From positions 682,001-746,000 of the forward strand of contig NZ_JAGFBF010000001.1 of assembly GCF_017583045.1 (NCBI RefSeq): a stretch of 64,000 nucleotides of DNA. Reading direction: 5' to 3'. Made by a program: the position numbers and the translations under genes. The notes beneath the pieces were generated by a model. The model was given only the letters and a program-made list of their open reading frames with translations. It ran no database searches and was not told the DNA's origin. Below are positions 8,790 to 34,369 of the stretch, piece by piece. Origin of the DNA: Leucobacter tardus. GTDB lineage: Bacteria; Actinomycetota; Actinomycetes; Actinomycetales; Microbacteriaceae. Every line of letters begins with the position of its first letter. Positions within the stretch are counted from its first letter, which is position 1.

Positions 8790-10544
8790 ATGACCGAGTA
8801 CCCCGCGCACGCCAGTGCACCCTTCTTCGCCGCACGCGACCAGCTGCTGGAGCTCGCCGGCGACCCCGATCGCGCACGTCGCGAGTTCGTCTGGCCAGAG
8901 GTGGGCGACACGTTCAACTGGGCGCACGACGTCTTCGACGCCATCGCCGAGGGCAATGACACCACCGCGCTCTGGATCGTCGAAGCCGACGGAACCGAGA
9001 TCACGCGCACCTTCGCCGATCTCCAGCGGCGATCCGACCAGGTCGCGAACTGGATGCGCAGCGTCGGGGCGAAGCGGGGCGACGTCGCGATGCTCATGCT
9101 CGGCAACCGCGTCGAGCTCTGGGAGATCATGCTGGCGGCGATGAAGATCGGTGTCGTGCTGCTGCCGACATCGGTCGTGCTCGGCGAGCACGAGCTGGCC
9201 GATCGGGTCGAGCGCGGACGCGTCGACTTCGTCTTCGCCGCACCGGAGGACGCGGTGAAGTTCCGCAGCGTTCCCGGCGCGTACCGCGGCATCGGCGTCG
9301 GGCTCGATGCGGGATCGCGCGACCAGCGCGCCCTCCTCTTCGACTGGCTGCGCTACGAGGAGTCGAGCGCGGCATCGCACGCGCGCGTGCCGAAGCAGAC
9401 GACGAGTCAGGATCCGGCACTGCTCTACTTCACCTCGGGCACCACCAACCTGCCGAAGATCGTCGTGCACTCCCACACGAGCTACCCCGTCGGCCACCTC
9501 ACCACGCTCTCGTGGATCGGAGTGCGTCCCGGTGACGTCCACTCGGTGATCAGCGCGCCGGGGTGGGCGAAGCACGCCTGGTCGAGCTTCTTCGGGCCCT
9601 GGCACGTCGGCGCCACCATCTTCGTCGTGAACAGCGCGCGGTTCGACGCCGAGCACCTCGTCTCCGAGCTCGACCGGGCCGGAGTGACCACCTTCTGTGC
9701 CCCGCCGACGGTGTGGCGCATGCTCATCCAGCACCGTCTCGACCGGAAGCCGCGGGCGCTCCGAGAAGTGGTCTCCGCGGGCGAACCGCTGAACCCCGAG
9801 GTCATCGCCCGTATCCAGGAGTGGTGGGGCCTCGACATCCGCGACGGGTACGGGCAGACCGAGACGACAGCGCTGGTCGGGACGATCCCGGGGGATCCGC
9901 TCGTCGCCGGAGCCATGGGTCGGCCGCTTCCCGGCGTCGACGTCGCGCTCGTGGACCCCGTGAGCGGAGCCGAAGCCGCCGAGGGCGAGATCTGCCTCCG
10001 CATGTCTTCGCCCAGCGCCCACGGGGACCGGCCGGCCAATCTCATGCCCGGATACTTCGGAGATGATGCCGCGACCGCTCGCGCGACCGCGGGCGGGTTC
10101 TTCCACACGGGTGACGTCGCCAGCCGCGACGACGACGGTGTGCTCACGTTCATCGGTCGCACCGACGACATCTTCAAGTCGAGCGACTTCAAGGTCTCGC
10201 CGTTCGAGGTCGAGAGCGCGCTCCTCGAGCACGCCCACGTCGCCGAAGCCGCCGTCGTCGGTGCACCCGACGAGACGAAGCTCAACATCACGAAGGCGTA
10301 TGTGGCGCTCGCCGCCGGAGTCGCCGCCGACGGTGAGACCGCCCGCGCGATCCTCACCCACGCCCGCGAGACGCTGCCGCCCTACATGCGCGTGCGCCGC
10401 GTCGAGTTCTTCGAGCTGCCGAAGACGACCTCGGGCAAGATCCGTCGCGTCGAGCTGCGCATCCGCGAGGAGGAGGCGCACGCAGCGGGTCGGCGGATCG
10501 AGGCCGAGTGGCGCGAAGAGGACTTCCCCGGGCTCAAAGGCTGA
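8790..10544 (+). CDS. AMP-forming acyl-CoA synthetase
   Basis: A 584-residue member of the ANL adenylating family. LLYFTSGTTNLPKIVVHSH (about residues 211-229) is the P-loop-like A3 motif, DGYGQTETT (about 352-360) is A5, and FFHTGD with IGRTDDIFKSSDFKVSPFEVE holds the A7/A8 hinge. The final PKTTSGKIRR carries the catalytic lysine. Overall form is close to medium-chain or benzoate-type acyl-CoA ligases. It activates a carboxylic acid as an acyl-AMP, then as a CoA thioester. Position at the edge of an aromatic-catabolism region suggests an aromatic or hydroxycinnamic acid, which is inference only. The start ATG lies 5 nt after the DUF2207 stop. Confidence 0.88.
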   Translation: MTEYPAHASAPFFAARDQLLELAGDPDRARREFVWPEVGDTFNWAHDVFDAIAEGNDTTALWIVEADGTEITRTFADLQRRSDQVANWMRSVGAKRGDVAMLMLGNRVELWEIMLAAMKIGVVLLPTSVVLGEHELADRVERGRVDFVFAAPEDAVKFRSVPGAYRGIGVGLDAGSRDQRALLFDWLRYEESSAASHARVPKQTTSQDPALLYFTSGTTNLPKIVVHSHTSYPVGHLTTLSWIGVRPGDVHSVISAPGWAKHAWSSFFGPWHVGATIFVVNSARFDAEHLVSELDRAGVTTFCAPPTVWRMLIQHRLDRKPRALREVVSAGEPLNPEVIARIQEWWGLDIRDGYGQTETTALVGTIPGDPLVAGAMGRPLPGVDVALVDPVSGAEAAEGEICLRMSSPSAHGDRPANLMPGYFGDDAATARATAGGFFHTGDVASRDDDGVLTFIGRTDDIFKSSDFKVSPFEVESALLEHAHVAEAAVVGAPDETKLNITKAYVALAAGVAADGETARAILTHARETLPPYMRVRRVEFFELPKTTSGKIRRVELRIREEEAHAAGRRIEAEWREEDFPGLKG

Positions 10545-10607
10545 GTCGGCGCGGGTCGCGGCGCGTCACACGCGGTCACCCGATTGGGGTCTCGTCGCGA
10601 TCCTCAC

Positions 10608-10613
10608 TAGTCT
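10608..10613 (+). promoter_or_regulatory. -10 box of the MetE-like gene (leaderless)
   Basis: TAGTCT lies 7 nt before the ATG at 10621 with no ribosome-binding site between, which argues for an independent, leaderless transcript. Confidence 0.5.
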
Positions 10614-10620
10614 CGCCTGC

Positions 10621-11829
10621 ATGACCACGATCGAGACCACCACCGCCGGAAGCCTGCCCCGCACCGATGCCCTCATCGCCGCGAATGCCGCGCGCGAGTT
10701 CGCTGAGGACGGCTTCACGCTGCAGTCGACGCCGGAGTACCGGAGCCTGCTCGCTGAGGCGGTGCGCGACGTCGTCGACCGGCAGCGCGAGATCGGCATC
10801 ACGCAGCCGGGCGACGGCGAGTTCGGCAAGGCGATGTCGAGCGCGGTCGACTACGGTGCGTGGTGGAGCTACTCGTTCCAGCGGGTGAGCGGGCTCTCCC
10901 TCACGGGAGAGAACATCTTCTCGCAGCAGCCGGTGCGGTCGGAACCGGGGCAGGTGAGGCTCACGAGCTTCCCGGACCGCCGCGACTGGACGCGCTTCGC
11001 CGCCGCCTACGCGGATCCCGACAGCGGTATCGGCACCGGCAGCACCGCCACCGACTTCCCGAGCACCACGGGTGAGATCAGCTACATCGGACAGGATGCG
11101 GTCGCGTCGGACGCTCAGCACCTGAGCGCCGCGCTGCGAGCGGGTGAGACCGGCTTCCTGACCGCGATCGCTCCGGGATCGGCCGCCCGGATCCAGAACG
11201 ACTTCTACGGCTCGGACCAGGAGCACATCGACGCCTGGGTGTCGGCGTTGCGGCAGGAGTACCGCACCATCACCGACGCCGGCCTCGTGGTGCAGCTCGA
11301 CGATCCGTCACTGGCCGAGAACTGGGACCAGATCTCCCCCGAGCCCTCGGTGGAGGACTACCTGGCGTTCACTCAGATCCGGATCGACGCGATCAACGAG
11401 GCGATCACGGATCTCCCGAAGGAGCAGGTCAGACTGCACCTCTGCTGGGGATCCTGGCACGGCCCGCACACGACCGACATCGAGCTGCGGCACCTGCTGA
11501 AGACCGTGCTCGGTGCTCGAGTCGGGCAGATCTCGTTCGAGGCCGCCAACGCGCGCCACGAGCACGAGTGGGCGGTCTGGGAGGAGCAGCGCGACCTCAT
11601 TCCCGACGACCTCGTGCTGGTGCCCGGCGTGATCAGCCACTCCACGAACCTCGTCGAGCATCCCGATCTCGTGGCGCAGCGCATCGAACGCTTCGCGCGC
11701 ATCGTCGGCTCCGAGCGGGTCATCGCCGCCACGGACTGCGGTCTCGGCGGGCGCGTGCACGAGCAGATCGCGTGGGCGAAGCTCGAGTCGCTGGGCGAGG
11801 GGGCGCGGCGCGCGGCTCAGCGCGTGTGA
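10621..11829 (+). CDS. Core-MetE-type cobalamin-independent methyltransferase
   Basis: A 402-residue protein matching only the catalytic C-terminal half of MetE. Classic MetE is about 750 residues. All four zinc ligands can be placed: His273 and Cys275 in HLCWGSWHGPH, Glu307 in ISFEAANARHEHEW and Cys373 in TDCGLGGR. ITQPGDGEFGKAMS near residue 60 is also typical of this branch. Enzymes of this fold activate a thiol on zinc for methyl transfer. Beside a THF-dependent demethylation system it could consume methyl groups, but homocysteine is not proven as acceptor and methyl-THF is not proven as donor. The last 13 nt overlap the convergent iclR gene. Confidence 0.8.
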   Translation: MTTIETTTAGSLPRTDALIAANAAREFAEDGFTLQSTPEYRSLLAEAVRDVVDRQREIGITQPGDGEFGKAMSSAVDYGAWWSYSFQRVSGLSLTGENIFSQQPVRSEPGQVRLTSFPDRRDWTRFAAAYADPDSGIGTGSTATDFPSTTGEISYIGQDAVASDAQHLSAALRAGETGFLTAIAPGSAARIQNDFYGSDQEHIDAWVSALRQEYRTITDAGLVVQLDDPSLAENWDQISPEPSVEDYLAFTQIRIDAINEAITDLPKEQVRLHLCWGSWHGPHTTDIELRHLLKTVLGARVGQISFEAANARHEHEWAVWEEQRDLIPDDLVLVPGVISHSTNLVEHPDLVAQRIERFARIVGSERVIAATDCGLGGRVHEQIAWAKLESLGEGARRAAQRV

Positions 11830-12701
11830 GGACTCTCCGAGTGCCGCTCCCGGTGCATGCGCCGATGCTCGGCGTCCTCGTCCGTGTCGAGCGTCGCGAA
11901 GTACTCGAGGGAGGCGCGCGACGTCGTGAGCAGCGGCTGAATGCCCGTCTCGGTCGAGAGCAGCGCCTGTGAGATGCCTCGTGCCGCGCCCTTGAGCAGT
12001 TCGACTGTGCCGAGCACGGGCGTGTCATCGCGGGCGACCACGACGCCGAGCGCGGCCACCGGCACCCCGTACGGCCCCATGACCGGCACCGCGATGCCGC
12101 GGGACTGCACATGGATGAACCCGTCGCACACGGCGTGCCCGCGCGCGTGCGCCTGGCGGATGAGCCGACGGAGTTCCGCCCCGTCCGCCGGCGTCTCGCG
12201 GGTGGTGCGCGGCCAGCCCTCGGCGATCACGGCGTCGATGAGGCTCTCCTCCGCGTGCGCGAGCAGCACGATGCCGCTCGAGCTCAACGGGACGGGAATG
12301 CGGCCGCCGATCAGCGTCGCGTTGATGACCGCGTCGCGCGTGGACTGCCGGTCGATGAACAGCACCTCGTGACCGCGCAGCACCGCGAGCTGGGTGTGCT
12401 GTCGCACCCGCACGTGGACCGCGTCGAGCCACGGTCGCGCGAGCTCGCGGAGGCCGAGGGCGCCCGGGGTGCGCGATGCGTACTCCCAGAGCCGGGTGCC
12501 GAGCCGATACAGCCGTCCGGGCGCGCGCTCGACCAGGCCCTCGTCCAGGAGCTCGGCGAGGAGCCGGTGCGTCGACGAGGTGGCGAGGCCGGTAATGGCG
12601 ACGATCTCGGAGAGGGTGAGTTCCGGCCGCTGCGGCTCGAACGCATCGAGAATGCGCAGGTGCTTGCGGAGCACCGATTCGCCGTCGGATCGTCTCGCCA
12701 T
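11817..12701 (-). CDS. IclR-family transcriptional regulator
   Basis: A 294-residue IclR protein. The N-terminal winged helix (about residues 10-75) includes LTLSEIVAITGLATSSTHRLL. The C-terminal effector domain (about 90-260) includes VLFIDRQSTRDAVI and SSSGIVLLAHA. IclR proteins often control aromatic acid degradation (PcaR, PobR types) and bind a palindrome in a divergent promoter. Here a 17-nt palindrome (12754-12770) lies between this gene and the divergent reductase-P450 operon, and the same palindrome recurs before the ABC transporter operon, so both are the likely targets. The ATG at 12701 is preferred because it gives the normal family N-terminus. Confidence 0.9.
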   Translation of the reverse strand: MARRSDGESVLRKHLRILDAFEPQRPELTLSEIVAITGLATSSTHRLLAELLDEGLVERAPGRLYRLGTRLWEYASRTPGALGLRELARPWLDAVHVRVRQHTQLAVLRGHEVLFIDRQSTRDAVINATLIGGRIPVPLSSSGIVLLAHAEESLIDAVIAEGWPRTTRETPADGAELRRLIRQAHARGHAVCDGFIHVQSRGIAVPVMGPYGVPVAALGVVVARDDTPVLGTVELLKGAARGISQALLSTETGIQPLLTTSRASLEYFATLDTDEDAEHRRMHRERHSESPHTR

Positions 12702-12810: not shown

Positions 12811-13767
12811 ATGAACACCGCTGTTCCTGCAACGCTCACCGTGACGAGCAAGCGCGTCGTCGCCGAGGACGTCGTCGAGTTCGTCCTCGGCAGCGCCGAC
12901 GGCCGGCGCCTGCCCGATTGGGCGCCCGGCGCACACATCGATCTCGCGCTGCCGCGCAGCGGCACGATGCGGCAGTACTCGCTCTGCGGCGATCGCTGGC
13001 GGGCGGACGCCTACACGATCATGGTGCAGCGGGAGCCCGACGGCAGGGGCGGGTCAGCGGAGCTGCACGACGTGGTCGAGGTCGGTGACACCCTCGAGTT
13101 CGGCGGGCCGCGCAATCACTTCCGGATGGCACCGGCCGAGGAGTACCTCTTCGTCGCCGGCGGCATCGGCATCACCCCGCTGATCCCGATGGTCGATCAA
13201 GCGCGGCGACTCGACCTGCCGTGGCGACTGCTGTACCTCGGACGCAGCGCCGCGAGGCTCGCGGCGCGCGCGCAGCTCGAACGACTCGACGGCGGGCGGC
13301 GGCGAGTGACCGTGCACGACGCGGGTCGCGCCGGGCGAGCGCGGCTCGCCGACTGGCGCCCCGCAGATCCGCGGGTGCGGGTGTTCGCCTGCGGCCCCGC
13401 GCGACTGCTCGATGCGGTCGAGAGCTGGGGTGCGGCTCCCGGCGGCCTGCCGCCGCGGGTCGAGCGCTTCACCGCAGACGCTCAGGGCGGTGCAGCCGCG
13501 ACCGCGTTCGAGGTGGTGGCCGCGCGCAGCGGCGTCTCCACCGTCGTCGATCCCGTCGAAAGCGTGGCCGACGCCCTGCGCCGGTCGGGCGTCGACGTGA
13601 TCACGTCGTGCGCCCAGGGGGTCTGCGGGACCTGCGAGACCGGGGTGCTCGCGGGCGAACCCGACCACCGCGACTCGCTGCTCGACGACGACGAGCGCCG
13701 ATCGGGTACCTGCATGTTCCCCTGCGTCTCGCGCAGCCGCGGACCACGACTCGTCCTCGACCTCTGA
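12811..13767 (+). CDS. Phthalate-dioxygenase-reductase-type oxidoreductase (FMN, 2Fe-2S), P450 partner
   Basis: A 318-residue reductase. MRQYSLCGD (near residue 55) is the flavin-binding RxYS motif, FVAGGIGITPLIPMV (near 115) binds NAD(P)H, and the C-terminal ferredoxin domain has Cys267, Cys272, Cys275 and Cys305 in the C-x4-C-x2-C-x29-C pattern of plant-type 2Fe-2S clusters. This is the domain order of phthalate dioxygenase and vanillate demethylase reductases. No Rieske oxygenase is nearby. Instead a P450 gene follows 44 nt downstream, so it most likely delivers electrons from NADH to that P450 as a two-component system. Confidence 0.9.
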   Translation: MNTAVPATLTVTSKRVVAEDVVEFVLGSADGRRLPDWAPGAHIDLALPRSGTMRQYSLCGDRWRADAYTIMVQREPDGRGGSAELHDVVEVGDTLEFGGPRNHFRMAPAEEYLFVAGGIGITPLIPMVDQARRLDLPWRLLYLGRSAARLAARAQLERLDGGRRRVTVHDAGRAGRARLADWRPADPRVRVFACGPARLLDAVESWGAAPGGLPPRVERFTADAQGGAAATAFEVVAARSGVSTVVDPVESVADALRRSGVDVITSCAQGVCGTCETGVLAGEPDHRDSLLDDDERRSGTCMFPCVSRSRGPRLVLDL

Positions 13768-15051: not shown

Positions 15052-16002
15052 TCAGACCACCGGGGTGCCGTGCGTGTGGAAGCTCTCGATGGTCTTCATG
15101 CCCCACGCCTGACCCTTCTTCCGCTCCTCCTCGCTCCACTCGACGACCGGCTGGTCGGGGTCGAGGAGGAGGCGTGCACCGGCGTTGGCGAACTCGATGC
15201 GGTTGCCGCCCGGCTCCCAGACGTACAGGAAGAACGTCTGGTTGATCGCGTGCTTGTGCGGTCCGGACTCGATGTAGATGCCGTTCTCCAGGAAGATGTC
15301 GGCAGCTTTGAGGATGTCCTCGCGCGTGTCCGGGGCGAAGGCGATGTGGTGGAGGCGATTGCCGTGCTTCGTCCAATCGTCGCTGTACACGACGTCGTAC
15401 GACTTCAGCCCGAAGTGGAACCACCAGGCGGCGAACTTGCCGCTGTCGAGACGGATCCGCTCGCTCTCGCGCATGGCGAGCGCATCGGCGAGGAAGGCGC
15501 CGTTCGCTTCGACATCCTTGCCGAGAAAATTGATGTGATCGATGCGCCGCGCGTTGATGCCTCGCCCCGGAAACGCCGACGCCTGGTTCTTCAGCGCCGG
15601 TCGGTCCTCGTCTCCCGCGACATAGCGTTCAGTCTCGTAGTAGATCGCCATCGAGTGCCCGTCGGGGTCGCGGAACATGAACGTCGAGCCGGTGCCGACT
15701 TCACCATCGACCCACCCCTCTCCGAGGCCGAGGCGCTCGATGGCGGCCACCCGACGCTCGAGCGCCCTCTGACTCGCGGCGCGGAAGGAAGTGCGGCCGA
15801 CGCCGGCCGCATCGGAGGCGGTGAGTTTGATCGTGTAGCGCTCGTACTCGTCCCAGGTGCGCAGGAATGCCACCCCGTCCGTCTGCTCGACAACGCGCAT
15901 GGCCAGCAGATCTCGGAAGAACCAGAGGCTCTCGTCGAATTTCGGAGTGAGGAGTTCGACGTTCGCCAGGTGAGCGACGTCGAAGGCGGTCGAATCAGTC
16001 AT
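15052..16002 (-). CDS. VOC-fold extradiol dioxygenase (catechol 2,3-dioxygenase type)
   Basis: A 316-residue type I extradiol dioxygenase of two VOC modules. The Fe(II) ligands are His156 (RRIDHINF), His219 (RLHHIAF) and Glu270 (GGNRIEF). The second-sphere His251 and Tyr260 fall where XylE has His246 and Tyr255, so the active site looks intact. It cleaves an aromatic ring next to vicinal hydroxyls. It ends an operon encoding GalB, GalC and GalD homologues, which process the gallate ring-cleavage product, and no LigB-type dioxygenase is present in the window. Gallate or 3-O-methylgallate is therefore the inferred substrate. A catechol role remains possible. Confidence 0.9.
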   Translation of the reverse strand: MTDSTAFDVAHLANVELLTPKFDESLWFFRDLLAMRVVEQTDGVAFLRTWDEYERYTIKLTASDAAGVGRTSFRAASQRALERRVAAIERLGLGEGWVDGEVGTGSTFMFRDPDGHSMAIYYETERYVAGDEDRPALKNQASAFPGRGINARRIDHINFLGKDVEANGAFLADALAMRESERIRLDSGKFAAWWFHFGLKSYDVVYSDDWTKHGNRLHHIAFAPDTREDILKAADIFLENGIYIESGPHKHAINQTFFLYVWEPGGNRIEFANAGARLLLDPDQPVVEWSEEERKKGQAWGMKTIESFHTHGTPVV

Positions 16003-16042: not shown

Positions 16043-17125
16043 TCAGCGGTGCGGTCTCGGGAAGACGAGCCCGTCGAAGATCTTGCGCGCGGTGCGCAGG
16101 GTGACGGAGGAGGCGGCCACGGCGCCGACGCCCGGGCGGTCTTCGACCCGCACGAGCGCGTCGAAGCGACCGCTCGGGTGTTCGATCGTCACGCGACGGT
16201 CATCGGAGAGCTCGGCGATCTCGTGGGCGATCGAGCCGGGGATCCGCGCCCCTGCGGCGACGGACGCCGCCATGAGGACACCGATCGCGGGGTGGACGCG
16301 GTGCGGAATGAACGCCCGCGCGGTGAGCGTGCCTCCGTGACGCGGCGGTGAGACGAGGATCATCTTCGGAACCGTCTGCGCGGCGACGTCGCCGAGCCCC
16401 ATGCGCGGTCCTGCCTGCAGCCGTATGGCTTCGAGGCTCGTCGTGAGTGCGGCGCTCGCCTCGAGTGTCGCTGGCTCCTCATCGCCGGACAGACCGAAAT
16501 CGGCCGCGTCGAGCACGACGACGGGCATGCCGCAGTCGACGATTGTCACCCGTCGCCCATCGATGTCATCGACGGTGTTCCCGGTCGGCAGGAGCGGTGA
16601 GCCGCTCCCGGTCATCTCGATCTCGATCGGAGCTGCGGTGCCCGGAACTCCGTCGATCGCCTGGTCTCCGTCGTACGCGACGGCACCGGATCGTATCGGA
16701 AAGGTCGCCGTGGCCACGTCGCCGGTGTTGAGGAGTCGAATGGTGACCGACGTGCGACCCTCGCCCGGTTGTACGAGTCCGCGCTCAACTGCGAACGGAC
16801 CGACGCCCGCGAGCAGATTGCCGCACGTCTGCCGGTCGGCCACCTCGGCTGTGGCGACGCCGACCTGCAAGAAGAGGTAGTCGACATCGATGCCCGGAGC
16901 CTCCGATCGCGAGACGATCGCCACCTTGCTGGTGAGCGGGTGCGCGCCGCCGAGGCCGTCGATCTGCCGTTCGTCCGGGCTGCCCATGACGCGCAGCAGC
17001 AGGTCATCGATCGACGGGCGCTCCGCCGGAAGGTCCTCGGCCAGGAAGAACGCGCCTTTGGACGTGCCGCCCCGCATCAGCATGCAGGGCAGTCCATCGG
17101 TGTCCGGCCGGCGCGCGGTGTTCAT
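16043..17125 (-). CDS. galD: 4-oxalomesaconate tautomerase (PrpF/GalD family)
   Basis: A 360-residue PrpF-family isomerase with a diaminopimelate-epimerase-like fold. It starts with LPCMLMRGGTSKGAFF, the usual GalD/PrpF opening. Later DRQTCGNLLAGVGPFA and RAFIPHRVHPAIGVLMAA follow the family. GalD converts the keto form of 4-oxalomesaconate to its enol form after extradiol cleavage of gallate. Relatives act on methylaconitate, but company of galB and galC homologues favours the gallate role. The ATG overlaps the galC stop by 4 nt. The dioxygenase gene follows after 40 nt. Confidence 0.82.
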   Translation of the reverse strand: MNTARRPDTDGLPCMLMRGGTSKGAFFLAEDLPAERPSIDDLLLRVMGSPDERQIDGLGGAHPLTSKVAIVSRSEAPGIDVDYLFLQVGVATAEVADRQTCGNLLAGVGPFAVERGLVQPGEGRTSVTIRLLNTGDVATATFPIRSGAVAYDGDQAIDGVPGTAAPIEIEMTGSGSPLLPTGNTVDDIDGRRVTIVDCGMPVVVLDAADFGLSGDEEPATLEASAALTTSLEAIRLQAGPRMGLGDVAAQTVPKMILVSPPRHGGTLTARAFIPHRVHPAIGVLMAASVAAGARIPGSIAHEIAELSDDRRVTIEHPSGRFDALVRVEDRPGVGAVAASSVTLRTARKIFDGLVFPRPHR

Positions 17126-17861
17126 CGCGGCGCAGAACCCTCGAACTCGGCCTGCGTCAGCGTGCGCACGCCCAGGTCGGCGAGCAGGGTGCGCAGGCCC
17201 TTGCGATCCAGGCTCAATGCGCCTTCGGCGTACGCCCGCCGGTCGGCCTCCTCTTTCTCGGCGCGCTGATCCGCCGCCTGCAGGGTCGCTCCCGCGAGGG
17301 CCCGGGGCACGCAGACGACACCGTCGTCGTCGGCGACGATCACGTCTCCGGGGCGGATGAGCGCCCCCTCGACGATGATCGGCACATTGACCGAACCGGC
17401 CGTGGCCTTGACGGTGCCCTGGGCATGGACCGCCCCGGACCAGACCGGGAAGTCGAGGTCGCGGAGGTCGGCGGTGTCGCGGACTCCGGTCGTGGTCACG
17501 ATTCCCCGTACGCCCCGCGCGTGCAGCGCTGTGGCGAAGAGGTCGCCGAACGCACCGTCGAGCGACGGGGATGTGGTCGTGACGACGAGCACGTCGCCCG
17601 GCTCGCACTGCTCGATGGCGGCGTGGATCATGAGATTGTCGCCCGGCCAGCACAGCACCGTGACGGCGGAGCCCGCGATGCGCGCGTCGCGCTGCCGAGG
17701 AGTGACGCCGTGACCGACGAGCCCCTCCCGTCCCAACGCCTCGTGGACGGTCGCCACGCCGTGCACCCCGAGCGCGTCGATGGTCGCGGCGTCGGCCCGT
17801 GCGATGTCGGTGACGACGACCCCGGTCCTGCCGACGCCCTCCGCCGGCGCAGGCGTGGCGG

Positions 17862-17865: not shown

Positions 17866-20198
<2,333 letters not shown>

Positions 20199-24342: not shown

Positions 24343-24345
24343 GAC

Positions 24346-25227: not shown

Positions 25228-26255
25228 TGTCGCCTCTGCTCAAGAAGCCCGCAATTCGTTGGGCCGCTCTCGGTGTGCTGATCGTGCTCGCTGTCGTGCT
25301 TCCGCTCGTGCTGCCCGAGATCGCGAACGATACCATCGCCCGCATCATCGTCTTCGCAGTGGCGGTGCTCGGCCTGAACGTGGTCATGGGGTACGCGGGG
25401 CAGGTGTCGCTCGGACAGATCTTCTTCCTGGGTCTCGGTGCGTACGTCACCGCGTACGGCGTCACGCACGACTGGAACATCGTGCTCACGTTCGTGCTCG
25501 CCCTCATCATTCCGGCGCTCGCCGGACTGCTCATCGCGTTGGCGGCCGCGCGTCTCGGGGGCCTCGCCATCGCGATGGTGACGATCGCGTTGCCGATCGT
25601 CGGGTTGCCGCTCGCGAAACGACTGAGCGACTGGACGGGCGGGTCGCAGGGCGTCTCGTCGCGGTTCTCGGACGCCCCCGAGTGGACCGGCCTCTATAAC
25701 GATCAGTGGAAGCTCTACCTCGTGATCGTCATCGCCGCCGTGACGTTCGCACTCGTGCGCAACTTCGTGCGCGGCAAGTTCGGCCGCGCGCTCGCCATCG
25801 TGAAGGAGAACCCTGCCGTCGCCTCGTCGATGGGCATCTCCCCGTACTGGACCAAGGTGCTCGCCTTCACGATCGCGTCGCTCGTGGGTGGCGTGAGCGG
25901 CTTCCTCTACATGACCGTGCTGCAGTACACGTCGCCCGAGACGCTCTCGTTCCACCACTCGATCACGCTGGTCGCCTCGATGGTGATCGGCGGCGCCGCG
26001 ACCATGGTGGGTTCGGTCATCGGCGGCGTCTACTACGTCTTCGTACCGGTGCTGACGAATGCGATCGACCCGAACCTGACGGCCGCGCTGCAGGGCGCGA
26101 TCCTGCTGCTCGTCCTGTTCCTGCTTCCCGGCGGTCTGGCGTCGTTGCCCCGCACCCTCGCCGGACTCCGAAAGTCGTCCGGGTCCCGACCCGGTGCTCC
26201 ACCCGCGGACGCGGGCGCTCCGTCGCCCGAAGCCCGCACCCAGAGTTCGCAGTAG
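25227..26255 (+). CDS. livM: HAAT-type ABC importer permease (LivM-like)
   Basis: A 342-residue membrane protein. GLNVVMGYAGQVSLGQIFFLG (about residues 47-67) and the coupling loop KENPAVASSMGISPYWTKVL (about 192-211) match LivM. The last 30 residues are a hydrophilic Pro/Ala/Ser-rich tail that is not needed for the fold. The start ATG is set by overlap with the livH stop. With LivH it makes the translocation pore. Confidence 0.92.
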   Translation: MSPLLKKPAIRWAALGVLIVLAVVLPLVLPEIANDTIARIIVFAVAVLGLNVVMGYAGQVSLGQIFFLGLGAYVTAYGVTHDWNIVLTFVLALIIPALAGLLIALAAARLGGLAIAMVTIALPIVGLPLAKRLSDWTGGSQGVSSRFSDAPEWTGLYNDQWKLYLVIVIAAVTFALVRNFVRGKFGRALAIVKENPAVASSMGISPYWTKVLAFTIASLVGGVSGFLYMTVLQYTSPETLSFHHSITLVASMVIGGAATMVGSVIGGVYYVFVPVLTNAIDPNLTAALQGAILLLVLFLLPGGLASLPRTLAGLRKSSGSRPGAPPADAGAPSPEARTQSSQ

Positions 26256-26276
26256 TTCATGAGAAAGGTGAGAAGA

Positions 26277-27515
26277 ATGAAGAGGAACATCAGGAAACGG
26301 GGGGTCCTCGGCGCCGTGGCGCTGTCGGCCGCTGCGCTCCTCGTCTTGAGCGCGTGCGCGCGCGACGGCGGGGGCGAGGCGAGTCCCGGCATCACGGATG
26401 AGACGATCACGCTCGGCGTGACGACGCCGTTGAGCGGCGGCACCGCCGGACCCGGAACCTGCACCGTCGCAGGGCTCCGCGCGTACATGGGGGCCGCCAA
26501 CGCCGCCGGCGGCATCGAGTTCGGCGATGGGAAGACCCGGGAGGTGCAGATCGAAGCGCTCGACGACGCCTACGATCCGCAGAAGGCCTCCTCCAACTTC
26601 CAGACGCTGAAGAACGAGGCGTTCGCCATCACCTCGGGTCTCGGCACGCCGACCAACCTCGCGTGGCGCGAGGCCGCGACCGCGGACGAGGTGCCCCAGG
26701 CGCTCGTCATGACGGGCGACCCCATCTTCAGCGACCAGGAGGAGAGCCCCTGGTCCCTCGGGTGGGTGCCGGTCTATCAGAACGAGGGCGAGGCGTTCGG
26801 TGAGATGCTCGCCTCGTCTTCCGAGGATCACAAGGTCGCGATCCTCTCGCAGAACGACGACTTCGGCGAAGGGTATGTCGAGGGTTTCAAGGAGGCGATC
26901 GCAGGGTCCGACAACATCGAGGTCGTCGGGGAACTCACCTACGAGGCGACCGACACCTCCGTCGACGCGCAGCTCACCGAGCTTGCGGCGACCGATGCCG
27001 ACGTGTTCTTCAACGCGATGTCGATCACGCCGCTCGTGATCTCCTCGCTCGAGCGGGCGCAGAGCATCGGGTGGGAGCCCAGCTGGTTCCTCCCGTCCAA
27101 CACCTCGAGCCCGGGAGCGATCCTGGAGCCGGGCGGAGCGAGTGCGTACCCCGGTGTGTACTCGGTCGCGTTCGCGAAGGCGCCCGCGTCTCCCGAGTTC
27201 TCCGATGACGAAGACGTGCAGACGTTCCTCGCGAATCTCGACGAGTACGCGGACTACTCCGACGTGCCGGCGTTCCCGCACTGCATGTGGAGCTACATGC
27301 TCGGCGCCACGCTCGAGCAGGTGTTCCAGGACATGGAGGAGCCGACGCGCGAGAGCTTCATGGAATCGCTGCGCAGTATCGAAGACTTCCAAGCGCCGCT
27401 CATGCTGGAGGGAACAACGGTGAACACGACCGAGGACGGCGAGCCGGCCGTCTCGACGGTCGTCGTGCAGAAGTACAACGGCCAGGGGTTCGACACCGTC
27501 GATCAGCTGGAGTAG
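26277..27515 (+). CDS. ABC importer substrate-binding lipoprotein (HAAT family)
   Basis: A 412-residue type I periplasmic-binding protein. A signal sequence ends in the lipobox LSAC with Cys27 as the lipidated residue. The mature part starts at ITLGVTTPLSGGTAG, as in Leu/Ile/Val and aromatic-acid binders of the Peripla_BP_6 group. An ATG at 26259 is possible, but AAAGGTG six nt before 26277 supports the later start. Encoded last in the ABC operon. Binding of methoxybenzoates or similar acids is suggested by context only. Confidence 0.9.
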   Translation: MKRNIRKRGVLGAVALSAAALLVLSACARDGGGEASPGITDETITLGVTTPLSGGTAGPGTCTVAGLRAYMGAANAAGGIEFGDGKTREVQIEALDDAYDPQKASSNFQTLKNEAFAITSGLGTPTNLAWREAATADEVPQALVMTGDPIFSDQEESPWSLGWVPVYQNEGEAFGEMLASSSEDHKVAILSQNDDFGEGYVEGFKEAIAGSDNIEVVGELTYEATDTSVDAQLTELAATDADVFFNAMSITPLVISSLERAQSIGWEPSWFLPSNTSSPGAILEPGGASAYPGVYSVAFAKAPASPEFSDDEDVQTFLANLDEYADYSDVPAFPHCMWSYMLGATLEQVFQDMEEPTRESFMESLRSIEDFQAPLMLEGTTVNTTEDGEPAVSTVVVQKYNGQGFDTVDQLE

Positions 27516-27576: not shown

Positions 27577-28227
27577 TCAGGTGTGCGTGCGCGAGATGGC
27601 CTGGATGATGGCGGCGAGGTGCGTCTCCGTCGCGGTCGCGGCGGCATCGGGGTCGCGCGCGATCACGGCGTCGACGATCGCGGCGTGCTCCTCGACGGAG
27701 GCGCTCGCCCGCTGCGGGTCGAAGGCCAGCCTGAACTGGTGCCGTGCGGCTTGGGCGCGGAGCCGTTCGAGCAGCTGGTTCGCGACCCCGTGGTCCGAGA
27801 TCTCGCGCAAGACGGCGTCCATCTCTTGGTTCAACGCCGCGTAGCGCACGAGGTCTCCCGATTCGACGGCGGTGCGCATGCCGTCGCGCAGATCTGCGAG
27901 CGCCGTGCTGCGGTCGGCGTCGATGCGTTCGGCTGCGCGTCGAGCGACCAGTACCTCGAGCCCGACGCGCACCTCGACGATCTCGATCGCCTCGTTCGGT
28001 GAGATGGCGCGGACGCGGGCGCCGCGGTTCGGCATCCGCTCGATGAGGCCTTCTCCCTCGAGCGTCATGAGGGCGTGACGCACCGAGGCGCGGGTCGCGT
28101 CGAACTCGGTGCTGAGATCGGCCTCGATCAGGCGCTGCCGCGGGACGAACTCCCCGTTCAGAATGGCTTGGCGAACGTGGTGGGCCACGCTCTCGGAGTT
28201 GGCTCGTACGGTCGACTGCTCGGACAC
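27577..28227 (-). CDS. GntR-family regulator with FCD domain
   Basis: A 216-residue FadR-subfamily repressor. The winged helix (about residues 10-75) includes FDATRASVRHALMTLEGEGL. The helical FCD effector domain follows, with the metal or ligand histidines spread over NQEMDAVLREISDHG, EEHAAIVDAV and ETHLAAI. FCD repressors sense organic or aromatic acids. The palindrome at 28255-28270 lies 28 nt before its start, so autoregulation is likely. Related elements before copy 1 of the O-demethylase and the ABC operon make it the best candidate regulator of the island. Confidence 0.9.
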   Translation of the reverse strand: MSEQSTVRANSESVAHHVRQAILNGEFVPRQRLIEADLSTEFDATRASVRHALMTLEGEGLIERMPNRGARVRAISPNEAIEIVEVRVGLEVLVARRAAERIDADRSTALADLRDGMRTAVESGDLVRYAALNQEMDAVLREISDHGVANQLLERLRAQAARHQFRLAFDPQRASASVEEHAAIVDAVIARDPDAAATATETHLAAIIQAISRTHT

Positions 28228-28326: not shown

Positions 28327-28857
28327 TCAGTTCAGCGGCTCGCCCCGGGTGCAGACCGTGACCATCTGCGTCCCCTTCCCGTGCGGCTCCAGCGCCTCGA
28401 CGCATCCGTGCGTCGCGACGATGCGCACGGTGACGCCACGGGGATCGAGCACGCGCACGAGTGCGTCTGCGATCTGCTCGCCGAGACGTTCCTGCAGCTG
28501 GGGGCGACGGGCGGTGCTCGAGACCAGCTTCACGATCCTGCTGAACCCTGCGAGCCGGGCGCGCGGCGCGTACGTCACATCGACGCGCCCCTCGAACGGC
28601 AGCAGGTGGTGGGGGCAGATCGAACGGAACGAGACATCGGTGACCGAGACGACCTGTCCGTGCGACTCGTCCTCCGTGACCTCCATGGGGGTACCGAGTG
28701 CCTCCGCGGGGTCGGCGCCCGCCTGCGCGAACATTCCTGCCGCGAGGTCGGTCACGCGCTCAGGAGTTCTGCGGAGTTCGGCGACCTCGGGATCGACGCC
28801 CATCGCCGCGAGAAACTCCGTCACGGCGCGCATCGCACGTTCACGATCGATACTCAT
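28327..28857 (-). CDS. folE: GTP cyclohydrolase I, divergent short form
   Basis: A 176-residue FolE. ICPHHLLPFEGRVDVTYAPR supplies zinc ligands Cys81 and His84, and VATHGCVEALEP supplies His150 and Cys152. FSRIVKLVSSTARRPQLQERL matches the FolE core. GTP is opened to dihydroneopterin triphosphate, the first step to tetrahydrofolate. After Cys152 the usual MTMRGV segment is replaced, and the C-terminus differs from housekeeping FolE, which in actinobacteria is normally encoded with other fol genes. It may be a second enzyme that supplies extra folate for THF-dependent demethylation. A different pterin product is also possible. Confidence 0.82.
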   Translation of the reverse strand: MSIDRERAMRAVTEFLAAMGVDPEVAELRRTPERVTDLAAGMFAQAGADPAEALGTPMEVTEDESHGQVVSVTDVSFRSICPHHLLPFEGRVDVTYAPRARLAGFSRIVKLVSSTARRPQLQERLGEQIADALVRVLDPRGVTVRIVATHGCVEALEPHGKGTQMVTVCTRGEPLN

Positions 28858-28864: not shown

Positions 28865-29464
28865 TCAGCTCCTCTCGGATCGACCGCGTTCCAGCCGGTC
28901 GACGGTCTCGAGTCCGTGCTGCGCCCATGCGATCTCCGATCGTGCGCGCGCGGCGAGCCCCTCGTAGGCGAAGCGCTTGTAGGCGATGGTGCGCTCGTGA
29001 TCGCGCTCGTCGGTCACGCGCAGGCGATTGACGAGCATCGGATTGTCGAGGGCCTCGATGTGCGCGAGCTCCCCGTCCCAGCAGGACAGCTCGTACGTCC
29101 AGTGCTCGATGTGGGCGCGCAAGAACGATCGCGCGGCGTCGGGCTCCGCGGACTCGAGGTACGCCGCGCGCAGATGGGCGGCGTCACGGGTGCGCTGGTA
29201 CTCGGGGGGACTGTTCATCCACGCGAGGAACGCCTGATCTCCGGCATCGGTCACATGGTAGATGCGGCGAACACCGCGCTCGCCGCGCGGCTGCTCCTCG
29301 GCGACGACGAGCCCCTCGTTCGCCATCTTCCGCAGTTCGGGGTAGATCTGCGAGTCGGCCGCGTGCCACACGTGGCCGACCGACTGCGAGAACTGCTTCT
29401 GCAGGTCGTACCCCGACATCGGACCGACGCGCAGGAGTGCGAGCAGTGCACTGCGGAGGCTCAT
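28865..29464 (-). CDS. PadR-family transcriptional regulator
   Basis: A 199-residue PadR-like protein. The winged helix (about residues 5-80) has GPMSGYDLQKQFSQSVGHVW and RRIYHVTDAGDQAFLAWM. The C-terminal alpha-helical dimerisation domain (about 100-195) follows the vinculin-like PadR form. PadR proteins often repress phenolic acid detoxification or catabolism genes. It lies 7 nt upstream of folE in the same direction, so the two form one unit. Only about 30 nt separate its ATG from the terminator of the preceding operon. Confidence 0.88.
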   Translation of the reverse strand: MSLRSALLALLRVGPMSGYDLQKQFSQSVGHVWHAADSQIYPELRKMANEGLVVAEEQPRGERGVRRIYHVTDAGDQAFLAWMNSPPEYQRTRDAAHLRAAYLESAEPDAARSFLRAHIEHWTYELSCWDGELAHIEALDNPMLVNRLRVTDERDHERTIAYKRFAYEGLAARARSEIAWAQHGLETVDRLERGRSERS

Positions 29465-29548: not shown

Positions 29549-31006
<1,458 letters not shown>

Positions 31007-31882
31007 CTAATTGAAGACGATGGTGTGGTTGTGGTGCCGGATCACGCGATCCTCGGCGTGCCACTGCACGGCGCGGCTGAGCACGGCGCGCTCGACGTTC
31101 GCTCCCATGCGCTGCAGGTCCGCTGCGGTCTCGGCGTGCGTGACGCGAATGACGTCCTGCTCGATGATCGGGCCCTCGTCGAGCTCTTCGGTGACGTAGT
31201 GGCTCGTCGCGCCGATGAGTTTGACGCCGCGCTCCTTGGCCTTGCGATACGGGGCGGCTCCGATGAAGGCGGGGAGGAAGGAGTGGTGGATGTTGATGAC
31301 GGGCACGCCGACCTGCTGCAGGAATTCGGGAGAGATGATCTGCATGTACCGCGCCAGCACGATGAAATCGACGTTGCCCTGCAGGAGTTCGAGAATCTTG
31401 GCTTCGGCGACCGACTTGTCGGGTCCCTGCGACGGGACGTGGAAGAAGGGAACCCCGAAACTCCGGACGTCCTCGACCATGGTGGTGTGGTTCGAGATGA
31501 CCATCGGGATCGTGACCGGCAGCTCGCCGCGTCGCTCGCGCCAGAGCAGATCGAGCAGGCAGTGGTCGCTCGTCGATGCGAGCACCGCCATGCGCTTCGG
31601 CACGGACATGTCGCTGAGGTTCCACTCGACCTGGAACGCGTCGAGCGTCTGCGCGAGATCGGCCTCGATGTCGGGGATCGCCGCGGACAGGCTCGGCCGG
31701 TGGAAGACGACGCGCTGGAAGAACGCGCCGCCCTCGGGGTCGTCGGAGTGCTGATCCAGTGAAACGATGTTGCCGCCGTTGCGCGTGATGAGCGTGGTCA
31801 CGGCGGAGACCAGTCCGCGCTGGTCCGGTCCGTGCACGATCAGGCAGGCGTGGTCACGGCGGGTCTCGATGGTCTTGGACAT
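31007..31882 (-). CDS. purU: Formyltetrahydrofolate deformylase
   Basis: A 291-residue PurU. An N-terminal ACT domain (about residues 10-85, HGPDQRGLVSAVTTLI) precedes a formyltransferase-type catalytic domain. INIHHSFLPAFIGAAPY carries the catalytic His and ATSHYVTEELDEGPIIEQ the catalytic Asp. It hydrolyses 10-formyl-THF to formate and THF. Sited between metF and an O-demethylase, it likely releases the oxidised methyl carbon as formate and regenerates THF, where the Sphingobium system uses formyl-THF ligase LigH. The methylene-to-formyl step (FolD) is not in this window. Confidence 0.93.
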   Translation of the reverse strand: MSKTIETRRDHACLIVHGPDQRGLVSAVTTLITRNGGNIVSLDQHSDDPEGGAFFQRVVFHRPSLSAAIPDIEADLAQTLDAFQVEWNLSDMSVPKRMAVLASTSDHCLLDLLWRERRGELPVTIPMVISNHTTMVEDVRSFGVPFFHVPSQGPDKSVAEAKILELLQGNVDFIVLARYMQIISPEFLQQVGVPVINIHHSFLPAFIGAAPYRKAKERGVKLIGATSHYVTEELDEGPIIEQDVIRVTHAETAADLQRMGANVERAVLSRAVQWHAEDRVIRHHNHTIVFN

Positions 31883-31897
31883 TGACGAGTCTCTTCC

Positions 31898-32749
31898 CTA
31901 GTGCTGAGCGGCGAATTCGTGCGCCCACTCGGCGGTCGCGAGCAGGCCACCGAAAGTATAGAAGTGCGTGCGTACGTTTCCGCTGGCCGGAGCGACTTCG
32001 AGCAGGTTGCCGAGCTCCTCCATGAAGCGGTCAGGGCCGGCCGTGCCCATGAGGTTGGTCAGTGAGAACCCGTACTTCTTCACGATGCCGGTGCTGGCGC
32101 CGACGCCGAAGCGGCGCGCGTAGCCGAGCAGGCGTTTGATGCCGGCGGGGCCGGGCGTCCCGATCCTGATCTCGGACTCGATGCCGCGCGAGCGCACATC
32201 GAGCACCCACTGCTGCACGGCTTCCGCGTCGAACGCGAACTGCGTGAGCACGACGGCGTCGAGTCCCTGCGTCGCCAGTGCCGCCGATTTCTCTTCGAGG
32301 TGCTGCCAGAGCACCTCGTCGGGGATGTCGGGGTGGCCTTCGGGGTAGCCGGCGATCGACACCTCGCGCACGCCGTAGCGCTGCAGCACACCCGACTGGA
32401 TCACCGTCAGGGAGTCGGGATACGGCCCTTCGGGGGTGGCGGGATCGCCACCGACGCAGAAGATGCGCTCCGAAGCGCCGATGTCCTGGAGGCGGCCGAG
32501 AAACTCTTCGAGCTGCTCCTGGGACTGCAGGCGCCTGGCGGAGATGTGGGGGACGGGAACGAAGCCGAAGTCCTTCACAGCCTTCGACGCTGCGATCCGC
32601 ATCTCCAGATCTTCGTTGCCGAGGAAAGTGACGTTGATCTTCGTCCCCTGAGGGATCGTGTGATGCGCCTCATTGAGCCCAGGAATGTCTTTGCCGGTCA
32701 TTTCGAGCGAGAAGCCGTCGAGCAGCTTGCGAGCAGCAGGAGTGGTCAT
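31898..32749 (-). CDS. metF: Methylenetetrahydrofolate reductase
   Basis: A 283-residue FAD-dependent MetF-family TIM barrel. FVPVPHISARRLQSQEQLEE, IFCVGGDPATPEGPY and the region AVVLTQFAFDAEAVQQW, then GTPGPAGIKRLLGYARRFGV follow the family. In O-demethylation it would run from 5-methyl-THF to methylene-THF, the reverse of its biosynthetic direction. It is the first gene of the metF-purU-demethylase operon, which favours this catabolic use over methionine synthesis. The start ATG lies behind GAAAGGAAG. The promoter region carries an inverted repeat. Confidence 0.9.
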   Translation of the reverse strand: MTTPAARKLLDGFSLEMTGKDIPGLNEAHHTIPQGTKINVTFLGNEDLEMRIAASKAVKDFGFVPVPHISARRLQSQEQLEEFLGRLQDIGASERIFCVGGDPATPEGPYPDSLTVIQSGVLQRYGVREVSIAGYPEGHPDIPDEVLWQHLEEKSAALATQGLDAVVLTQFAFDAEAVQQWVLDVRSRGIESEIRIGTPGPAGIKRLLGYARRFGVGASTGIVKKYGFSLTNLMGTAGPDRFMEELGNLLEVAPASGNVRTHFYTFGGLLATAEWAHEFAAQH

Positions 32750-32777
32750 GATCCAAGTCTTCCTTTCGCGGCGCGTC

Positions 32778-32824: not shown

Positions 32825-32850
32825 TAGGGAAATGGGGGATGCTCGAAAGC

Positions 32851-32890
32851 GGCGGTGGGATCGTCGTGCTGGTGCGTCGGTCCCACCGCC
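32851..32890 (-). terminator. Terminator of the aldehyde dehydrogenase gene
   Basis: GGCGGTGGGA and TCCCACCGCC pair perfectly over 10 bp with a 20-nt loop, 18 nt after the dehydrogenase stop. On the minus strand it is followed by GCTTTCGAG. Confidence 0.7.
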
Positions 32891-32908
32891 GAGGAGCGTC
32901 GTCCGTGC

Positions 32909-34369
32909 TTAGTCGGCGATCACGGAGACGGCGTGCGCCTCCTGGAAATCGCGGATGCCGTGGATGCCCTGCTCGCGTCCGATGCCGGACTGCTTCACCC
33001 CGCCGAACGGGGCCCGAAGATCCAGGCGAGTGGCCCCGTGGTCATTGACCCACACGTACCCCGACTGCAACTGCGGCGCGACGCGATCGGCTGCAGCGGC
33101 GTCTGCGGTCCACACGGAATTGCCGAGCCCCGCCCACGTATCGTTCGCCAGGCGGATCGCCTCCTCCTCACTGTCGAACGGAATGACGGGAATCACGGGG
33201 CCGAACTGCTCCTCGGTGACGACGCGCAGCGCCGGATCCGCATCGACGACGATCGCCGGGCGCACGAAGTTACCGCCGGCGAGCTCCCCGCCGGGCAGCT
33301 CGCCGAACTCGCGCACGTCGGCCCCCGCATCCTTGGCCTCGCGGATGAGATCGTCGACGAAGGCCTTCTGGGCCGGCGAGTGGAGCGGGCCCATCGTCGT
33401 GCCGTTCGGCTCGTCGAGACCGTAGCCCAATTGCACCCGGGCGAGCCGAGACTCGAGCCCCGCGACGAGCTCGTCCATGCGCGAACGGTGCACGATCAGG
33501 CGTTTCGCGTTCATGCAGATCTGGCCCGTGGTGTCGTAGACCGCGCCGAACAGCTTGTCGAGGTGCGCGTCGTCCAGCGGCGCATCCGCGAGGAACACCG
33601 CCGCGTCGTTGCCTCCGAGCTCGAGGGTGACCGGCGTGAGCGACCGCGAGGCCATCTCCATGATCTTCTTGCCGCCGTTCACGCTGCCGGTGAAGCCGAC
33701 CTTCGCGATCTGCTCGTTCGAGATCAGACCGGAGAGGTGTTCGTCGCGTCCGGTGATGACCTGCAGCACGCCGGGGGGGAGCTGTTCGGCGACGCGCTGC
33801 ACGACGCGGGCGGTGGCCAGGGGCGCGGTGAGCGGGGGCTTCACGATGACGGTGTTCCCCGCGAGGAGGGCGTGAGGCAGCGCCGCGCCGAGAATCGCGA
33901 TCGGCCAGTTGAAGGGGACGATGATCGTCACGGCGCCCATCGGCTGATAGGAGATGCGGGTGGAGTTCGGGATCGCACCGGGGACGGGAGCGAGATGCTC
34001 GGTCGCATCCACGTCGTCCGCGTGCGTGAGGGCGAGGTTCCAGCGCAGCTCGAACACCAGCGAGTCGACCCAGGCCTCGTGGACGACTTTGCCGTTCTCC
34101 TGCGAGAGGATCGCGGCATCGTCATCGCGGTGATCGGCGATGCCCTGAATGGCCTGAGTCATCTGCGCTGCGCGCTCCGCGCCGGACAGCGCCGACCATG
34201 CGGGGAATGCGCGCCGTGCCGCGGCGACGGCGTCGGCGACGTCGTCGGGACTCGCGGCAGCGGCGGTGCCGACGATGCGACCCGGCTTGCCCGGGTCGGC
34301 GATCTCGAGCACGTCGGCAGTGGTGCGCTCCTCGCCATCGATGAACAGAGCGGTGTGAAGATCGGACAT
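32909..34369 (-). CDS. Aldehyde dehydrogenase, candidate aromatic aldehyde dehydrogenase
   Basis: A 486-residue NAD(P)-dependent aldehyde dehydrogenase. VTIIVPFNWPIAILGAALPH (near residue 145) holds the catalytic Asn, VTLELGGNDAAVF (near 245) the general-base Glu, and TTGQICMNAKRLIVH (near 280) the nucleophilic Cys. It oxidises an aldehyde to an acid. Upstream of a demethylation operon, vanillin or syringaldehyde would be a sensible substrate, but sequence does not decide. Two adjacent ATGs exist. The second (34369) has the better spacing to AAAGGG. It has its own transcription unit with a terminator. Confidence 0.87.
   Translation of the reverse strand: MSDLHTALFIDGEERTTADVLEIADPGKPGRIVGTAAAASPDDVADAVAAARRAFPAWSALSGAERAAQMTQAIQGIADHRDDDAAILSQENGKVVHEAWVDSLVFELRWNLALTHADDVDATEHLAPVPGAIPNSTRISYQPMGAVTIIVPFNWPIAILGAALPHALLAGNTVIVKPPLTAPLATARVVQRVAEQLPPGVLQVITGRDEHLSGLISNEQIAKVGFTGSVNGGKKIMEMASRSLTPVTLELGGNDAAVFLADAPLDDAHLDKLFGAVYDTTGQICMNAKRLIVHRSRMDELVAGLESRLARVQLGYGLDEPNGTTMGPLHSPAQKAFVDDLIREAKDAGADVREFGELPGGELAGGNFVRPAIVVDADPALRVVTEEQFGPVIPVIPFDSEEEAIRLANDTWAGLGNSVWTADAAAADRVAPQLQSGYVWVNDHGATRLDLRAPFGGVKQSGIGREQGIHGIRDFQEAHAVSVIAD

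Follow-up and report, generated by a model that had tools for sequence, protein, structure and literature searches.

A type I extradiol dioxygenase as the probable gallate ring-opener of a methoxylated aromatic acid island in Leucobacter tardus

We analysed a 64,000-nucleotide stretch of the Leucobacter tardus genome (contig NZ_JAGFBF010000001.1, positions 682,001 to 746,000; hereafter the window), focusing on a 26-kb island at 8.8–34.4 kb. The sequence suggests, with reasonable confidence, that this island serves the catabolism of methoxylated aromatic acids, and that a type I (VOC) extradiol dioxygenase encoded in it is a gallate dioxygenase replacing the LigB-type enzymes DesB and GalA. The broader claim, that the VOC subfamily to which this enzyme belongs, with a tyrosine in place of the acid-base histidine, serves many actinobacteria and rhizobia as gallate dioxygenase and is a non-orthologous replacement of LigB, we regard as likely, if slightly less so. 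Among the products of tannin and lignin breakdown, gallate and syringate hold a central place. Should the assignment be correct, genome searches that use LigB as a marker would overlook gallate degradation in some of the Microbacteriaceae, Micrococcaceae and rhizobia, the label 'catechol 2,3-dioxygenase' would be wrong in such clusters, and the same ring cleavage would be the work of two unrelated folds, with a Tyr/His difference at the active site.

The only ring-cleaving dioxygenase recognised in the island adjoins galD

The gal genes form a block on the reverse strand. galD (16043–17125), for 4-oxalomesaconate tautomerase, exceeded the cut-off of its model (NF033377, 461 bits against 440), as did galC (17122–17865), for 4-carboxy-4-hydroxy-2-oxoadipate aldolase, on NF006731 (304 bits against 179); GalC fell below the ligK model TIGR02798 (272 against 304.5). 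The third gene (17862–18617) encodes a protein of the LmbE/PIG-L fold (PF02585, 84 bits) that matched this domain alone and no specific NCBIfam model, and its position makes it a candidate galB-type oxalomesaconate hydratase. On the other side of galD, at 15052–16002 on the same strand, lies the sole ring-cleaving dioxygenase recognised in the island, which we propose to be the gallate dioxygenase. An earlier reading of the island, made from the sequence alone (the original prediction), had rightly placed an extradiol dioxygenase here, overlooking that its superfamily is not that of the known gallate dioxygenases: it is a type I enzyme (VOC, PF00903, 61 bits) and not of the LigB type. AromaDeg places gallate dioxygenases in the LigB superfamily, and gallate is not among the type I substrates named in the part of that source consulted (PMC4250580).

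A LigB-type gallate dioxygenase elsewhere in the genome was considered and rejected, as LigB (PF02900) had no match in the L. tardus genome in a search that recognised the control in 4 of 14 genomes. LigC (PF19858) likewise had no match over its cut-off there, in a search in which 16 of the 17 LigB genomes described below matched and no named control did. Two neighbouring intradiol-dioxygenase stretches lie at C1:84.7–85.6 kb of the genome and are perhaps pcaGH, for protocatechuate. A second PrpF-type protein is encoded at C5:171622–172638 and scored 287 bits on the 4-oxalomesaconate tautomerase model, below its cut-off.

VOC and LigB genes exclude one another at GalD in Microbacteriaceae

Comparison across the Microbacteriaceae, which the original prediction had proposed, was made on one draw of 349 family genomes searched for the VOC protein, GalD and LigB. 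The VOC protein had matches at 1e-60 in 22 genomes, 17 of them strong (382–727 bits, with the threshold of at least 382 bits chosen after inspection of the scores, the next of which was 280). Strong matches always lay within 170 bp of GalD; the rest, at most 280 bits, were never within 6 kb of it. GalD scored at least 398 bits in 41 genomes, and 37 of these also exceeded its curated cut-off of 440; all 17 strong-VOC genomes, L. tardus among them, belong to the 41. A strong VOC gene was found 34–170 bp from GalD in 17 of the 41 and a LigB gene about 2.35–2.5 kb away in another 17; both were present in none, and neither in seven, namely G164, G200, G235, G323, G334, G360 and G404, where no dioxygenase of either type lies within 6 kb of GalD. 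Seven chosen frames from three of these (G323, G360 and G200) were scanned and contained no dioxygenase, encoding instead solute-binding proteins, a permease, an MFS protein, a dehydrogenase-like protein and a DUF5719 protein. Within the genus the gene is patchy, with a strong VOC match (at least 92% identity) in 4 of 54 genomes and weak matches only (231–263 bits) in three others.

LigC followed the same division, being over cut-off in 16 of the 17 LigB genomes and in none of the 17 VOC genomes, two of which had weak matches below the cut-off. Gallate cleavage is reported to yield 4-oxalomesaconate directly, without LigC, whereas protocatechuate cleavage needs it (PMC6888825). The VOC clusters thus lack the step needed for protocatechuate cleavage and have what gallate needs. 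The one LigB context inspected of the 17 (G385, locus L093) is a protocatechuate 4,5 set: it has ligK/galC-like and ligU/galD-like genes, two amidohydrolase genes, ligB, a 132-residue frame where ligA would be expected, and an oxidoreductase of the LigC type.

The VOC gene recurs beside gal genes in other taxa

One scan of a genome collection with the VOC protein returned 80 loci, 49 actinobacterial and 31 other; in 10 and 3 of them, respectively, one flank was shorter than 6 kb. At least two of galB, galC and galD lay within 6 kb of the VOC gene in 44 of the 49 actinobacterial and 16 of the 31 other loci, and a GcvT-type match of at least 50% identity, the family to which the island's putative demethylases belong, was found in the same locus in 44 and 14, respectively. 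Plasmid pAt of an Agrobacterium from walnut carries genes for GalB, VOC, GalC, GalD and a tannase in that order (tannase PF07519, 438 bits), flanked at the opposite end by an importer of the branched-chain type. Tannases release gallate, and no other single observation points as strongly to gallate itself. No demethylase match was found in the gal–tannase stretch; about 57 kb away, the plasmid also has a metF relative.

Two further layouts differ from these. On a Roseomonas mucosa plasmid (L085, 7046–17588), genes for LigA, LigB, an alpha/beta hydrolase, the VOC protein, a Liv importer, a VanA-type Rieske protein and a PDR reductase stand in a row, so that LigAB and VOC occur together, in contrast to the pattern at GalD in the Microbacteriaceae. 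In Nitratireductor aestuarii (L062, 6577–10951 and 12461–13357), a protein matching the DesA model, metF, purU and VOC form a single run close to an amidohydrolase gene, a further arrangement of syringate type that uses this VOC enzyme.

A tyrosine occupies the acid-base position in all VOC sequences compared

The AlphaFold2 model of the VOC protein (mean pLDDT 84, pTM 0.87) had as its closest Foldseek matches the Rhodococcus RHA1 enzyme 3lm4 (TMq 0.90) and AphC 7q2a (TMq 0.89). It shares with these, and with HPCD (1f1x), the fold and the 2-His-1-Glu triad, which is kept in all 83 VOC sequences compared (His156, His219, Glu270); it differs from all three in having tyrosine for their histidine and in its gal gene context. 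In the alignment with HPCD, the metal ligands and Tyr257 are retained and His200 is replaced by Tyr202. By HPCD numbering we take His200 to be the acid-base residue and Arg243 and Arg293 to bind the substrate carboxylate; the titles of PDB entries for H200 and Y257 variants indicate that both of these residues have been studied. Tyr202 and Arg294 were found in 83 of 83 sequences, with or without gal neighbours, and position 296 is lysine in 81 and arginine in two. A second VOC dioxygenase, 43% identical, is encoded about 18 kb from the first in another genome of the genus (G093, C1:2872419–2873348, L095); it has the usual histidine at the acid-base position and no ERKK motif.

PDB entry 9wgj (352 bits) shares the tyrosine and an ERK motif in the alignment and was named 'catechol 1,2-dioxygenase' by its depositors; it was not among the best 50 Foldseek matches listed (library to April 2026). 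It is a close relative, and the identity of the ring-opener may already be known. We regard the ring-opener as the new element of this system, open to prior assignment, and make no claim that the literature lacks a type I gallate dioxygenase.

LigM-type proteins, metF and purU suggest tetrahydrofolate-dependent demethylation

The original prediction had counted three LigM/DesA-type genes of the GcvT fold, and all three carry the GCV_T domain (146, 122 and 134 bits for GcvT1, GcvT2 and GcvT3). The assignment holds for GcvT1 (18795–20198, forward strand, divergent from galB) and GcvT3 (29549–30994, reverse strand), predicted tetrahydrofolate (THF)-dependent O-demethylases that scored 894 and 867 bits on the LigM model NF047885, above its cut-off of 580. 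It does not extend to GcvT2 (21248–22630, forward strand), which reached 489 bits on the LigM model and 543 on the DesA model NF047633 (cut-off 800) and appears to represent a separate LigM/DesA-like subfamily. None of the three passed the DesA model, on which GcvT1 (612 bits) and GcvT3 (608) scored far lower than on the LigM model. Matches to LigM of known structure (5X1I/5TL4) scored 711, 400 and 717 bits, and identities to LigM are 65%, 45.5% and 67.5%, for GcvT1, GcvT2 and GcvT3. Six picked relatives of GcvT2 (L026, L035, L041, L008, P0003 and P0059) all failed both models. Proteins of L062 and L088 passed the DesA model (892 and 837 bits) and, less strongly, the LigM model (650 and 618), so the LigM cut-off alone cannot separate LigM from DesA.

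Tyr247 and Arg122 of LigM presumably have functional roles. The Tyr247 column holds tyrosine in all three island proteins; the Arg122 column holds arginine in GcvT1 and GcvT3 and tryptophan in GcvT2. Among 111 sequences, this column was arginine in 56 of 56 closest to GcvT1 or GcvT3 (at least 65% identity), tryptophan in 22 of 22 closest to GcvT2, a set that includes hand-picked proteins, and mostly arginine (17) or histidine (12) in the remaining 33. Since GcvT2 fails both cut-offs, the syringate demethylase is a candidate assigned by inference. The original prediction of a complete syringate/vanillate-to-gallate system is partly supported, by the LigM models, galBCD and the metF-purU-ligM run, as well as by a genome free of VanA_C (PF19112; no match in L. 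tardus, control recognised in 4 of 14 genomes), and falls short at syringate.

As originally predicted, metF and purU stand in an operon-like run with one LigM-type gene: metF (31898–32749), purU (31007–31882) and GcvT3 follow one another on the reverse strand with gaps of 15 and 12 bases. PurU, a formyl-THF deformylase, passed TIGR00655 (362 bits, cut-off 286). The methylene-THF reductase family match of MetF is weak (PF02219, 34 bits, cut-off 24) and lies below TIGR00676 (32.1 against 293.7). folE (28327–28857, reverse strand), for GTP cyclohydrolase I and folate supply, matched PF01227 (159 bits), passed NF006826 (163.2 against 162) and fell below TIGR00063 (130.5 against 181.6). A single formate-THF ligase gene lies elsewhere in the genome, and both exits from formyl-THF are therefore possible. 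The grouping of metF, purU and a demethylase is not unique to the island, as it recurs on plasmids and in Sphingobium sp. V4: the metF relatives among the plasmid matches listed are 46–50% identical, and in the two contexts inspected (Agrobacterium and Bosea plasmids) they lie beside aminomethyltransferase genes; in strain V4 a metF relative lies near a protein matching the DesA model and purU. Together, the LigM-type proteins and metF-purU suggest that Gram-positive hosts may demethylate lignin acids without the use of oxygen.

The P450 and reductase genes noted in the original prediction are also present, and their role can be refined. The P450 (13812–15038, forward strand, start inferred) is CYP199-like, with 551 bits to the CYP199 structure 9g9q and 445 bits over about 400 residues to CYP199A4 (4dnz). 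We take CYP199A4 to be a para-methoxybenzoate demethylase, and the island enzyme is better read as a probable para-O-demethylase feeding the pathway. Unlike CYP199A4, it is encoded beside a one-chain PDR-type reductase with a C-terminal 2Fe-2S stretch (12811–13767, forward strand), its probable electron donor, which fell below the NCBIfam cut-offs (BenC 76 bits, ferredoxin 25 bits). Microbacterium has been named as a groundwater degrader of veratric acid (PMC10602745).

Proposed pathway

Gene content, family membership, adjacency and, in one family, the exclusion of LigB at GalD are observations; the pathway into which they can be joined is a prediction in every substrate, reaction and direction. 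Methoxylated aromatic acids would be taken up by the Liv-type importer, and a para-methyl group would be removed by the CYP199-like P450 with its own reductase, releasing formaldehyde. The meta-methyl groups of syringate, 3-O-methylgallate and vanillate would pass to THF via the LigM-type proteins, probably with GcvT2 taking part. Methyl-THF would be oxidised by MetF and a putative FolD encoded elsewhere, and PurU would hydrolyse formyl-THF to formate and free THF, with folE supporting the THF pool. Vanillate would yield protocatechuate for an intradiol pathway elsewhere in the genome, and gallate would be opened by the VOC dioxygenase to 4-oxalomesaconate, which GalD, GalB and GalC may convert to pyruvate and oxaloacetate.

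Weighing gallate against other substrates

Several observations weigh against this reading. Two gal genes within 6 kb are missing from 5 of the 49 actinobacterial and 15 of the 31 other VOC loci, namely those of Tersicoccus (L024), a 3-kb contig (L032), Sinomonas (L035, L036 and L038), 13 of 15 Microvirga loci, Nitratireductor (L062) and Chromohalobacter (L083). Some LigB gene is present in 13 of 48 searchable actinobacterial VOC genomes (L011 left out) and in 25 of the 31 others, so exclusion between VOC and LigB fails genome-wide. At GalD, besides the threshold chosen in hindsight, the Fisher probability of 5e-18 is too small because the family genomes are not phylogenetically independent, and the 41 GalD genes include four under the cut-off of 440, of which three come from VOC genomes. 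HPCD Arg243 and Arg293 are not conserved, and that Arg294 and Lys296 bind the carboxylate in their place is a guess; as Tyr202 and Arg294 also occur in loci without gal genes, they mark the subfamily and not a substrate. The island MetF is very divergent. Finally, Bacillus ligniniphilus has a type I catechol 2,3-dioxygenase that is reported to be inactive on protocatechuate and pyrogallol (PMC8671467), and a LigB-type enzyme of Pseudarthrobacter is reported to open gallate as a side activity (PMC8431788).

The Roseomonas plasmid, where the single galC/ligK-type gene lies about 9 kb from VOC, also counts against gallate in that its context allows that the subfamily may cleave 3-O-methylgallate or something else. 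In L. tardus this would make the VOC protein a 3-O-methylgallate dioxygenase that opens the ring with one methyl left, a hydrolase then removing the methyl ester, and would leave the LigM-type proteins mainly for vanillate. The alpha/beta hydrolase adjoining VOC in Roseomonas fits such a route, as does Nitratireductor L062, where VOC follows a protein passing the DesA model (892 against 800), metF and purU, with an amidohydrolase nearby. We nevertheless think it unlikely, since no alpha/beta hydrolase or amidohydrolase was found among the 30 window frames scanned with Pfam, GcvT-type genes share the locus in 44 of the 49 actinobacterial cases, and the Agrobacterium stretch combines a tannase with no demethylase match, although there is the metF relative some 57 kb off.

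It is more improbable still that the VOC protein is an ordinary catechol 2,3-dioxygenase neighbouring the gal genes by chance, with gallate opened by an unrecognised enzyme. Its score on the catechol 2,3-dioxygenase model TIGR03211 is just below the cut-off (298.4 against 320.2 bits), its fold is closest to AphC and the RHA1 enzyme, and most homologues among the plasmid records listed are named catechol 2,3-dioxygenase or VOC family protein. Set against this are the position of VOC next to GalD in all 17 strong-VOC family genomes with LigB excluded there, the replacement of His200 by tyrosine in 83 of 83 sequences, and the island aldehyde dehydrogenase, whose 287 bits on the model of the 2-hydroxymuconic semialdehyde enzyme fall short of its cut-off, 693. 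We see very little likelihood that the GcvT-fold proteins act on non-aromatic donors, such as glycine betaine derivatives or dimethylsulfoniopropionate (DMSP), in a methyl-amine or sulfonium system. Although the fold is common to sarcosine, dimethylglycine and DMSP enzymes, GcvT1 and GcvT3 scored 867–894 bits on the LigM model against about 40–56 on the DMSP and sarcosine models, and far lower on the glycine-cleavage model as well, and the aromatic neighbours recur in relatives; we rejected this role on the model scores.

Relation to known systems

Judging by its title, a 2019 paper deals with a syringate-consuming actinobacterium. THF-dependent demethylation in actinobacteria is of an already known kind, given that some homologue records are named vanillate/3-O-methylgallate O-demethylase and that Arthrobacter is reported to use THF enzymes on methylenedioxy rings (PMC5547118). 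Sphingobium sp. SYK-6 resembles the island in its LigM-type proteins, in THF as methyl acceptor and in having metF beside a demethylase gene, its run being ligM-metF-ligH (PMC6888825). The island differs in carrying purU in place of ligH in the run, a galB-type gene, and VOC in place of the LigB-type DesB, in a genome in which neither LigC nor LigB was found. The metF-purU pair resembles the one-carbon wiring of chloromethane use more than that of SYK-6: the chloromethane pathway of Methylobacterium extorquens CM4 includes metF2, purU and folD, with metF and purU dedicated to methyl-THF oxidation and reported as essential to growth on chloromethane (PMC3621897). In contrast to CM4, with its CmuA and CmuB, the island would draw its methyl groups from aryl ethers through LigM-type proteins. 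Of the galA-galB-galC-galD pathway of Pseudomonas putida, the island has the GalC and GalD types, a candidate for the GalB type, and the same predicted sequence of reactions (PMC10512348); the VOC enzyme would stand in place of the gallate dioxygenase of the LigB superfamily (PMC4250580).

Island extent and remaining genes

All genes on the original list, from the three GcvT genes, metF-purU and folE to galBCD, the dioxygenase, P450 and reductase, importer and regulators, were found on the strands given. Pfam domains bear out the four local regulators, of the IclR (11817–12701, start inferred; PF01614, PF09339), LysR (20215–21135; PF03466, PF00126), GntR/FCD (27577–28227; PF07729, PF00392) and PadR (28865–29464; PF03551) types, all on the reverse strand, as well as folE and the HAAT (Liv-type) importer (22863–27515, forward strand), with two ATPases (PF00005), two permeases (PF02653) and a binding protein (PF13458).

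On the left, the island starts with a forward-strand gene for an AMP-forming acyl-CoA ligase (8790–10544; PF00501, 211 bits; PF13193, 73 bits), whose ATG agrees with the edge at 8790. Among the NCBIfam models listed it passed no cut-off (best MbcS, 364 against 850; benzoate-CoA ligase family, 228 against 375), and it is possibly a mere neighbour of the system. It is followed on the same strand by a gene missing from the original list, for a MetE C-domain-only protein of about 402 residues (cobalamin-independent methionine synthase II family; Meth_synt_2; 10621–11829; PF01717, 39.5 bits), its start inferred from 402-residue homologues. This protein passed no NCBIfam cut-off, and the 120 homologues listed are 69–99% identical, one being named 2-hydroxypropyl-CoM lyase; since many of these close homologues carry Leucobacter and Microbacterium names, it too may be a neighbour only. 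At the right edge lies a reverse-strand aldehyde dehydrogenase gene (32909–34405, start uncertain; PF00171, 399 bits), possibly for an aromatic aldehyde, which passed none of the 25 NCBIfam cut-offs listed, and then menC (34500–35504), encoding the housekeeping o-succinylbenzoate synthase (437 bits, cut-off 288).

In G093 the genes from GcvT3 to the AMP-forming ligase occur in identical order at 73–99% identity, the purU/metF stretch lying outside the comparison. We rejected the idea that the island is DNA of foreign composition: G+C content was 66.5–70.5% in 4-kb blocks from 8 to 36 kb and 66–71% outside, with no clear step, in a genome of 2.95 Mb. Just beyond the island, at 35529–38344 of the window, a LysR gene is divergent from a gene for a flavoprotein like fumarate reductase or succinate dehydrogenase (FAD_binding_2, 287 bits), beside menaquinone-type genes.

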